In this document: in pieces, positions 28,309 through 30,254 of the stretch
Layout: every line of letters begins with the position of its first letter
Numbering within the stretch: the first letter of the stretch is position 1
DNA from: an uncultured Balneolaceae bacterium
GTDB taxonomy: Bacteria; Bacteroidota; Rhodothermia; Balneolales; Balneolaceae
Direction: 5' to 3'
DNA: 36,368 bases
Assembly: GCA_938091655.1 (NCBI GenBank)
Contig: CALKOA010000020.1
Location: forward strand, 1 to 36,368
Notes under the pieces: generated by a model
Databases searched by the model: none
Seen by the model: the letters and a program-made list of their open reading frames with translations, nothing else
Told to the model about the DNA's origin: nothing
Program-made: the position numbers and the translations under genes

Positions 28309-29337
28309 CTATTCTGAGGATGAAAGGAGTACTAATATTCGTTCTAAATCGTCATCAGTAAAGTATTTTATGCGAATTTCCCCACCTTCTGAGAAGGTTT
28401 TCATCTGCACTTTTGTGCCAAGCGCACTTCGTAATTTTGATTCTATATCTCTGATAACGGCACTATTTTTTGTTTCCGTTTTTCCTGAAGGCTTCATCGT
28501 TTCTGAGTTGGGTTGAACTCCAGAAGTGTTTGCTTTGACTCGAATATGATCTTCTAGTCGACGAACTGACCACTGTTCTCGGATTACCTTGTCAAGTATG
28601 GAATGTTGTTCTTCGGTTGAATCAACTCCGAGTAAGGCTCGTGCATGTCCTCCACTAATTCTATTAGCAGCTAAAGCTAGCTGAATGAAGTCGGGTAAAT
28701 TCAACAACCGAAGCATATTTGTGACCGTTGTCCGATTTTTACCAACTTTATTTGCCACCTCAGATTGGGTATAATTAAATTCTTCGAGCAGTCGTTGATA
28801 CGCAACCGCTACCTCGAGTGGGTTTAAGTCCTCGCGCTGGATGTTTTCAATAAGAGCATAGGCCATACTTTGTTCATCATCAGCATGTCGTACATAGGCG
28901 GGGATGCTAGAGGCTCCTGATAACTTAGAAGCTCTGAGCCGCCGCTCACCACTTATCAACTCATAACGTTTATCACCTAAATATCGAACGGTAATTGGCT
29001 GTATTAGTCCATGTTGTTGGATAGATTCAGCTAATTCTTCTAGTCGTTCTTGGTCAAACTCTTTTCTTGGCTGGAAGGGATTCGCACGGATGTGGTCAGG
29101 TTCAAGAAATAGTACTACATCTACCTGACCATGTTGAGCTTCTGTATTGGAGGTAAATTCTTCACTTTTGGATGGCTCGCTATCCGTAAATTGTCTAGAA
29201 TTTCGCTCATCCGCAGTTTGCTTTAGGTTTTCTTGCTTATCAGATTCCGTTAAGATTGGATTTTTCTTAGTATGCTGATCTTCCATATCTGGAAAAAAAG
29301 CTCCAAGTCCCCTTCCCAGTACTTTCTTATTCGCCAT
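28309..29337 (-). CDS. parB: Chromosome-partitioning protein ParB
   Basis: Centromere-binding CTP-dependent clamp. The 342 residues start with GRGLGAFFPD, typical for chromosomal ParB, then a polar variable stretch to about 75. The N-terminal domain holds IRANPFQPRKEF, ELAESIQQHGLIQPITV and the CTP-binding GERRLRAS. The helix-turn-helix follows: YTQSEVANKVGKNRTTVTNMLRLL, then SGGHARALLG. A linker and a C-terminal dimerisation region end the chain. It lies 6 bases after parA. No parS site of the TGTTTCACGTGAAACA type was found in the window. Confidence 0.96.
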   Translation of the reverse strand: MANKKVLGRGLGAFFPDMEDQHTKKNPILTESDKQENLKQTADERNSRQFTDSEPSKSEEFTSNTEAQHGQVDVVLFLEPDHIRANPFQPRKEFDQERLEELAESIQQHGLIQPITVRYLGDKRYELISGERRLRASKLSGASSIPAYVRHADDEQSMAYALIENIQREDLNPLEVAVAYQRLLEEFNYTQSEVANKVGKNRTTVTNMLRLLNLPDFIQLALAANRISGGHARALLGVDSTEEQHSILDKVIREQWSVRRLEDHIRVKANTSGVQPNSETMKPSGKTETKNSAVIRDIESKLRSALGTKVQMKTFSEGGEIRIKYFTDDDLERILVLLSSSE

Positions 29338-29343
29338 GTCCTT

Positions 29344-30141
29344 TTATTTAGTTAATACAGGACTATTCTTAAATAGTTTTCTGTTCCTCTTTATAATCTC
29401 CCCTGCTAAAGCTAGATAATTTTTTGCCCCCACAGAAGTTGAATCATACAGTAGAGCGGGCTTACCAAAAGAAGGAGCTTCTGCCAAGCGGACATTCCTC
29501 GCAATGACGGTCTTAAATACCCGATCATCAAAATATCGCTTCACTTCATCTGCCACCTGGTTAGATAATCTTGTTCTGGTGTCGTACATAGTCAATACCA
29601 CTCCTTCAATATCCAAACTAGGATTTAAGTGTTGACGCACAATTTTAATGGTGTTGAGAAGTTGTCCTAAACCTTCTAATGCAAAATATTCACATTGTAC
29701 GGGGATAACGATGGAATCAGACGCGGTTAATGCATTAATGGTCAAAAGTCCTAAGGAAGGAGGGCAATCTATAATGATGAAATCATACTTATCCCGTAAC
29801 TCAGAAATGGCCTTTGTTAAGATTCGTTCACGTTGTTCGCGATCGATCATTTCTATTTCTGCTCCCACTAAATTGATGTGGGCTGGCACTAGGTCTAAAA
29901 AGTCTAATTCTGTTTGTCGGATGGTATCGCTAATTTCAGCACTACCTATCATGACTTCATAAATAGAGTTAGTCACCGTCGAGGTATCAATCCCTAACCC
30001 ACTAGTGGTATTGCTCTGTGGATCAATATCTATAATTAAGGTAGGATGTTCAATAGCCGCTAAACTGGCAGCTAAATTTATGGATGAGGTGGTTTTACCT
30101 ACCCCTCCTTTTTGATTTGCAATAGAAATTACTTTACCCAT
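29344..30141 (-). CDS. parA: Chromosome-partitioning ATPase ParA/Soj
   Basis: Walker-type ATPase that moves ParB-bound origins. The 265 residues have the deviant Walker A KGGVGKTT at 10-17 with no N-terminal helix-turn-helix (chromosomal Soj type). They also have [25 protein letters not shown] (Walker B) and [15 protein letters not shown]. It is the first gene of parA-parB-DUF5683. The 132-bp gap upstream holds DnaA-box-like sites beside a promoter element. Confidence 0.97.
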
Positions 30142-30204
30142 TGACGACTTAAACCATTAAAACTTTGAAATAAAATTCAATATAAAAGTACCTCTGAACC
30201 GAAC

Positions 30205-30212
30205 CAAAAATA
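30205..30212 (-). promoter_or_regulatory. Candidate -7 element (TATTTTTG) of the parA operon
   Basis: On the minus strand TATTTTTG matches TAnnTTTG, 63 bases before the parA ATG. The -33 region lacks TTTG and instead coincides with a DnaA box, so the promoter may depend on an activator. Confidence 0.45.
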
Positions 30213-30213
30213 C

Positions 30214-30254
30214 TTATTAACAGTGGGGCCGTAAGTTATCCACATTGTGGCTTA
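30214..30254. promoter_or_regulatory. DnaA-box cluster upstream of parA
   Basis: A perfect consensus box TTATCCACA at 30236-30244 is flanked by TTATTAACA at 30214-30222 (one mismatch, 22 bases away, two helical turns) and by an inverted TGTGGCTTA at 30246-30254 (two mismatches). The last two form the palindromic core CCACATTGTGG. The sites lie directly upstream of the parA -7 element. Origin or regulatory function is inference. Confidence 0.45.

Follow-up and report, generated by a model that had tools for sequence, protein, structure and literature searches.

A promoter unit conserved upstream of parAB in the Balneolaceae and its probable control by DnaA

In the Balneolaceae, parAB appears to be preceded by a family-conserved promoter at which DnaA binds beside RNA polymerase, most likely activating the operon, a reading to which we assign a probability of about 0.6. 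The element would be a sigma-A-type promoter with a -33 TTTG, a 20-bp spacer and a -7 TATATT, a DnaA box being fixed 5 bp upstream of the -33 element and a strong second box standing 22 bp, that is, two helical turns, further up. This strong upstream box is shared by the genus of the DNA studied here and seven other genera. DnaA on the two boxes would most likely contact RNA polymerase and activate parAB, and the output of the segregation machinery would then follow the level or nucleotide state of DnaA and, through it, replication initiation. If so, one protein may time both the start of replication and chromosome segregation. DnaA control of chromosome partitioning, as proposed in the initial annotation of this DNA, is the reading that the sequence evidence favours, with the promoter-proximal box kept upstream of parA in 84 of 92 genomes.

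The window, that is, the whole stretch of 36,368 nucleotides that was analysed, is contig C20 of a 2.05-Mb Balneolaceae MAG in 149 contigs. Its minus strand carries, in this order, uvrC, an ECF sigma factor gene, an anti-sigma-like gene, a 132-bp gap, parA and, 6 bp downstream, parB (Table 1). The window ParA has its nearest named relatives among records of Balneolaceae, Gracilimonas, Balneola and Fodinibius/Aliifodinibius, and on this ground the group of 92 genomes used below is referred to as Balneolaceae. A single DnaA match was found in the same genome (TIGR00362, 529.5 bits, cut-off 343.9), and its domain IV reads GGRDHSTVIHA, which we take to be the usual DnaA box-recognition signature.

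Table 1. Coordinates of the parAB promoter features in the window and of the candidate origins
Feature	Position	Strand	Remarks
parA (chromosomal ParA ATPase)	29344..30141	-	first gene of putative controlled operon
parB (ParB/Spo0J family)	28309..29337	-	TIGR00180 185.2 bits, cut-off 58.45
Box 1, perfect DnaA box	30236..30244	-	TGTGGATAA on minus, TTATCCACA on plus
Box 1, extended form TGTGGATAACTT	30233-30244		same at three TGTGGATAA boxes upstream of dnaA, same genome
Box 2, DnaA-like box	30214..30222	-	TGTTAATAA on minus = TTATTAACA; 5 bp upstream of -33 TTTG
Likely -33 TTTG, inside TATTTTTG	30205..30208	-	20 bp upstream of TATATT in 75/75 strict-core loci
TATTTTTG	30205-30212	-	
Promoter spacer, 20 bp, length fixed	30185..30204	-	
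Likely -7 TATATTGA	30177..30184	-	TATATT at 30179-30184
Candidate origin L335	G011:C1 ~954,910-955,800		
Candidate origin L334	G049:C1 ~320,150-320,522		
Candidate origin L342	G000:C45 ~46,980-47,378		

Box 1 holds the sole exact copy of TTATCCACA within the window (30236-30244, plus strand), and box 2 starts 22 bp from the start of box 1, which lies further upstream of parA. The pair had been described as a perfect box with a one-mismatch partner. Both TTATCCACA and TTATTAACA are indeed present, but the latter has two mismatches to TTATCCACA and a single one to the degenerate TTATNCACA; this is why it was missing from a one-mismatch scan for TTATCCACA. An inverted near-box (TTAAGCCACA, minus strand), proposed as a third member of the cluster, had to be dropped, as it was not conserved even within the genus and was absent from loci L005-L008.

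The initial annotation took TATTTTTG for the -7 element of parA and saw the boxes in place of a -33 element. We read its TTTG as the likely -33 element, since TATATT sits exactly 20 bp downstream in 75/75 strict-core loci. The earlier promoter call was thus off by one element, and with the assignment shifted, the boxes no longer lie within the promoter but immediately upstream of -33. TTTG-N20-TATATT resembles the Bacteroidota promoter form (TTTG / TAnnTTTG) and is probably the working parAB promoter. The TTTG end of TAnnTTTG is incomplete in most members of the family, the window having TATATTGA, and TATATT lies 29-48 nt from the parA ATG in 78/82 loci. In Flavobacterium psychrophilum, TAnnTTTG boxes were mapped at -12 to -5, according to the available part of the paper (PMC9723704). 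With the same geometry, the parA start would lie near 30172, which would put box 2 at -50 to -42 (centre about -46) and box 1 at -72 to -64 (centre about -68).

Taken alone, the window was rejected as a source of significance. Box matches with at most one mismatch numbered 9 in the window against 11.0 expected from its shuffles, and the 2.05-Mb genome held 20 exact boxes against 34 matches to the reversed pattern. Single-genome counts do not exceed chance. What exceeds chance is the conservation of the boxes at parA.

We assessed this conservation in 92 Balneolaceae genomes, of which 88 provided 89 parA loci for upstream comparison. A subset of 85 loci omits G057, G071, G072 and G080, which escaped the start-codon search but are included in the 89-locus and genome-wide counts. 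No ParA match at E <= 1e-60 was found in G002, G007 and G060, and G085 gave a fragment plus paralogues. Searched genome-wide, TGTKNATAA-N5-TTTG-N20-TANNTT had exactly one match in each of 84/92 genomes, and the reversed unit had none in all 92. Since the genomes with the unit were identical in the locus and genome-wide searches, the single match per genome is the parA promoter. Relatives lacking the boxes upstream of parA had been named as what would speak against the initial annotation; box 2 is there in these 84 genomes. At the locus level, the unit (TGTKNATAA, 5 bp, T[TC]TG, 20 bp, TATATT) was present upstream of parA in 84/89 loci. Chance matches in AT-rich DNA, which single-genome counts at or below expectation might have suggested, are refuted by this recurrence at one place against a reversed control of 0/92, and we give them practically no weight.

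Eight genomes were without the unit, namely, G002, G007, G060 and G085, which gave no ParA match at the cut-off or only a fragment, G018 and G023, in which CTTG replaces TTTG, a one-base difference at -33, and G089 and G090, which are both genomes of genus g20. Also without it is a second copy of ParA in G082, which is a 71% complete MAG with 4% contamination. In loci L178 (G090) and L179 (G089), whose genomes measure ~1.5 Mb, the region upstream of parA is different, with an inverted TTATTCACA followed by TGTGGAAAG, TTTGA and TATATT.

A stricter core that leaves out the -7 element, TGTKNATAASTNNTTTTG, gave 88 matches in 78/92 genomes, 78 of them at parA, against 12 for the reversed control. 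Gathered by this core alone, 75/75 loci (85 examined) had TATATT at exactly 20 bp. In four g4 genomes (G031:C1:1101553, G032:C2:212056, G035:C2:892785 and G038:C7:22565), the core without -7 is also present, as TGTGGATAACTGGTTTTG, at ~90 bp from where the dnaA match starts; these four dnaA-side matches did not recur when the full unit was searched. In E. coli, the DnaA box consensus is TTWTNCACA. This pattern was found within 150 bp upstream of parA in 68/85 Balneolaceae loci, where base shuffles predicted 2.2.

In genus-weighted columns, box 2, -33 and -7 reach 2.0 bits at most positions, partly because the gathering regular expression fixes those letters, while the 20-bp spacer carries 0 to 1.4 bits and the flanks mostly 0-0.5 bits. 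Position 5 of box 2, which is free in the pattern, takes all four bases (T63 A12 G8 C1), like the N of TTWTNCACA. At position 6, where the pattern allows C or A, 61 of the 84 loci have C and 23 have A, the window being among the latter and hence off the E. coli consensus. Box 2 reads TTATTCACA in 41 loci, TTATTAACA in 22, TTATACACA in 12, TTATGCACA in 8 and TTATCAACA in 1. It was never TTATCCACA in the 84 loci, though TTATCCACA is common upstream of dnaA.

Box 1 is more variable among genera. In g1, g2, g4, g5, g6, g8, g11 and g21, 34/34 loci have a direct TGTGGATAA or TGTGGAAAA, beginning exactly 22 bp upstream of box 2. Genus g12 has an inverted box instead (typically TT[AT]TCCAC followed by C, G or A), which starts 15 bp upstream of box 2 in 21/27 loci, and like inverted boxes occupy the same -15 place in g18 (TTTTCCACA or ATATTCACA, 3/3 loci) and g14 (CTATTCACA, 1/1 locus). 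The sole g9 locus has an inverted TTATCCACC at -25, and g3 has a weak TGTTGATA at -23 in 5/10 loci; in g7, g10, g13, g15-g17 and g19, box 1 is weak or missing. Overall, 42/84 loci have a match of at least 8/9 to TTATCCACA, in one or the other orientation, within 45 bp upstream of box 2, as compared with 1.5% of shuffles.

Other sequences were noticed around the unit. Several genera (L030-L052) have CCTCGCTT immediately ahead of TATATT and its mirror, AAGC[AG][AG]G, right in front of the parA ATG. The two may form an inverted repeat for another regulator, which is not evident in the genus of the window. In L032, L037, L039, L051 and others, a G+C-rich hairpin accompanied by a run of T (GGCAGCC...GGTTGCCTTTTT) was seen by eye directly before box 1 and looks like the terminator of the preceding gene.

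General scans for promoter signals were made in relatives. In 252 tandem intergenic regions of two relatives, the cleaner of two sets, TTG-N20-TAnnTT occurred 15 times in sense and 0 times in antisense orientation, a signal of small numbers and one of several gaps and motifs tried. The neighbouring gaps were balanced (N21 7/7, N19 6/6), and N18 (11/4) and N25 (14/4) were also sense-leaning. The version restricted to TATATT gave 2 versus 0, numbers too small to be of use. A set of 531 looser upstream regions gave no maximum at 20 bp, the combination of TATATT and TTTG being found 0 versus 0 times at 20 bp and 5 versus 2 times at 21 bp (sense versus antisense). An exhaustive two-block search found no dominant pair.

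Outside the family, we looked at 65 named parA upstream regions and 20 from the same order or class, which make 81 distinct loci and not 85, because four loci stand in both lists. The 65 were what remained of 80 named loci, sorted by title and place after viewing, when 15 Balneolaceae, all repeats of family loci, were set apart; their upstream sequence matches none of the 85 family loci, and L217, L218, L220 and L224 among them were not placeable at family level. The unit was absent from all 81 distinct outside regions, and a looser form (N4-6, N19-21) found nothing in the 65. TTWTNCACA within 150 bp was found in 3/65 (1.3 expected) and 0/20 (0.2 expected). Two loci near the family, L318, from the same order, and L220, have kept TTTTTG and TATATT, 19 bp apart, with no preceding box; the box would then have been added to a promoter that existed before it.

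In many phyla, parAB lies near oriC. The boxes might accordingly mark oriC, as the initial annotation had considered, or an origin-like element. Such is the case on the secondary replicons of Deinococcus radiodurans, where, in the part of the paper available, DnaA binds upstream of parAB and the sequences act as origins (PMC7671480). In the Balneolaceae, this claim did not survive comparison with relatives. The likely origin is an AT-rich gap with DnaA boxes between dtd and a DinB-like gene, both names being read from sequence, at 955 kb in G011 and 320 kb in G049, two relatives with a single contig each. From this dtd-upstream candidate, parA is 1.30 Mb away in G011 and 1.33 Mb in G049 (contigs taken as circular), and 1.46 Mb in G031 (one contig). 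For third-codon-position skew, each genome was sampled with twenty 20-kb stretches; the sign changes from negative to positive at 0.875-1.05 Mb in G011 and 0.185-0.37 Mb in G049, with single stretches deviating elsewhere, e.g., at 2.975 Mb in G011. In 10-kb bins, the cumulative GC-skew minimum of G011 is at 950-960 kb, in a tie with the bin at 990-1000 kb, and that of G049 is at 270-280 kb, nearly tied with 310-320 kb. The candidate origin is at or within about 40 kb of this minimum in both genomes, and parA ~1.3 Mb from it.

Upstream of dtd, which was found in 10/12 genomes searched, 10/10 loci have an inverted box at -361 to -395, and 9/10 have a direct box at -293 to -325. The parS pattern, found in 5/6 genomes and not in G049, agrees with this location, its distance to dtd being about 25 kb in G011, 21 kb in G031 and 18 kb in G050; from parA it is about 1.3 Mb away in G011 and 1.44 Mb in G031, on one contig. 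In the genome of the window, parA (C20), parS (C35), dtd (C45) and dnaA (C129) are on four separate contigs, and the likely oriC contains TTATTAACA and TTATCAACA. The region upstream of parA has two boxes, the multi-box AT-rich region lying upstream of dtd instead, and no iterons were seen by eye in the 132-bp gap. An origin at parA is thus hardly credible.

We rejected dnaA as a marker of oriC, its distance to dtd being about 0.35 Mb in G011 and 0.45 Mb in G049. Of the 31 dnaA upstream loci (L029, L053-L082), 30 were read, and most of these have a conserved DnaA-box array at about -350, -339, -187 and -89, counted from the start of the DnaA model match and shifted about 21 bp in the genome of the window. 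This array probably serves dnaA autoregulation.

If the parA boxes are not an origin, which protein binds them, and with what effect? We infer that DnaA is the binder, an identity indirectly supported by the extended form TGTGGATAACTT, which box 1 has in common with all three TGTGGATAA sites upstream of dnaA. The DnaA-box likeness would be coincidental if another DNA-binding protein, or RNA polymerase itself through an upstream or extended -33 element, read TGTKNATAA. Such a reader would suit a box 2 that is never TTATCCACA, is off consensus at position 6 in 23/84 loci and is fused to -33. Against it, position 5 varies freely, as it does in DnaA boxes, and box 1 is perfect here and found nearby in opposite orientation in other genera; the same box variants also recur at the likely oriC. 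Moreover, the strict core is otherwise rare, with 10 further matches in 92 genomes, and hence is not a general promoter part. Altogether, we find a reader other than DnaA improbable. Further protein sites, besides DnaA boxes, are carried by datA and DARS. A titration or reactivation site of this kind, present at parA by happenstance, would agree with the distance from oriC in relatives, but the region has only two boxes, and promoter elements at fixed spacing are part of the conserved unit, so that we give this reading very little credit.

As for the sign of the effect, activation is favoured because the site is directly upstream of -33 and not over it, the distance is fixed, and box 1 stands two turns away, in eight genera on the same face of the helix. 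Repression ranks next: DnaA on the same boxes would repress or buffer parAB by hindering RNA polymerase at -33, box 2 ending 5 bp from it. There are precedents, in the parts of the sources available, in E. coli, where DnaA-ATP represses dnaA and, at high level, nrdAB (PMC8203912), and in Bacillus subtilis, where DnaA appears to repress several operons (PMC4447404). A repressor abutting -33 could also be held in place, and the weak or missing box 1 of g3, g7, g10, g13, g15-g17 and g19 counts against our best reading, as do the A at position 6 of box 2 in 23/84 loci, the lack of the unit in g20 and the small numbers behind the general -33/-7 signal. Yet the boxes cover neither -33 nor -7, and a base-exact distance to -33 in 84 genomes is less needed by a repressor site, which makes repression unlikely, though the most serious of the alternatives.

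Activation of parAB by DnaA, and with it a role in the cell cycle, is therefore the reading that we retain. A narrower version, which we put forward tentatively and at less than even odds, makes parAB the only target of a promoter dedicated to activation by DnaA, with a weak-class proximal box that would read the level or nucleotide state of DnaA. On the signal of the initiator, the segregation proteins would be produced from a gene >1 Mb from the origin, and the promoter would act as a transcriptional timer that couples segregation to initiation in trans.

Among titles and abstract openings of the top-listed papers of an incomplete collection, there was no report of DnaA control of a parAB promoter. 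The terms parA, parB and soj do not occur, by term counts in the text available, in a review of DnaA as a transcription factor (PMC8203912), and the available part of a study of Burkholderia DnaA boxes near parABS (PMC7364216) deals with origin methylation and holds nothing on the parAB promoter. The nearest report that we found concerns D. radiodurans, whose cisII and cisMP upstream of parAB are bound by DnaA as origins (PMC7671480). As described in the part available, those sites are origin- or parS-like, with iterons and non-canonical boxes, and lie on secondary replicons, whereas the Balneolaceae have two boxes at fixed promoter places, far from the likely origin in relatives. For an initiator acting on a parAB promoter, one precedent was found, that is, RctB of Vibrio cholerae chromosome II, which modestly enhances parAB2 transcription (PMC3141006, in part). 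There, as proposed here, a replication initiator acts on the cognate parAB operon. However, RctB is not DnaA and acts via rctA beside oriCII, whereas the Balneolaceae motif is a DnaA box and the operon lies >1 Mb from the likely origin in relatives. The promoter region of E. coli nrdAB also has DnaA boxes, and DnaA can activate or repress it depending on nucleotide state and level (available part of PMC8203912), but the gene is a different one and has three boxes.

The ParA family includes MipZ. In Caulobacter crescentus, DnaA directly activates mipZ, which encodes a spatial regulator of division, as well as gcrA, ftsZ and hdaA, two of these targets having a single box (PMC3193534, in the part available). 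The Balneolaceae promoter would be alike in having one or few boxes and in DnaA as a direct activator. It differs in that the target is parA itself, in another phylum, with a fixed distance between box and -33, and is known from its sequence. With one site and one operon, kept once per genome through the family, and with cultured relatives such as Fodinibius salsisoli, it would make a clean model.

In B. subtilis, initiation and segregation are linked by Soj/ParA acting on DnaA. In Caulobacter, the link is made by DnaA at parS, according to the available part of the report (PMC6399470). Known links between the two processes thus run mostly via proteins or via DnaA at parS, and the promoter unit of the Balneolaceae, if bound by DnaA, would be a direct wire between them.
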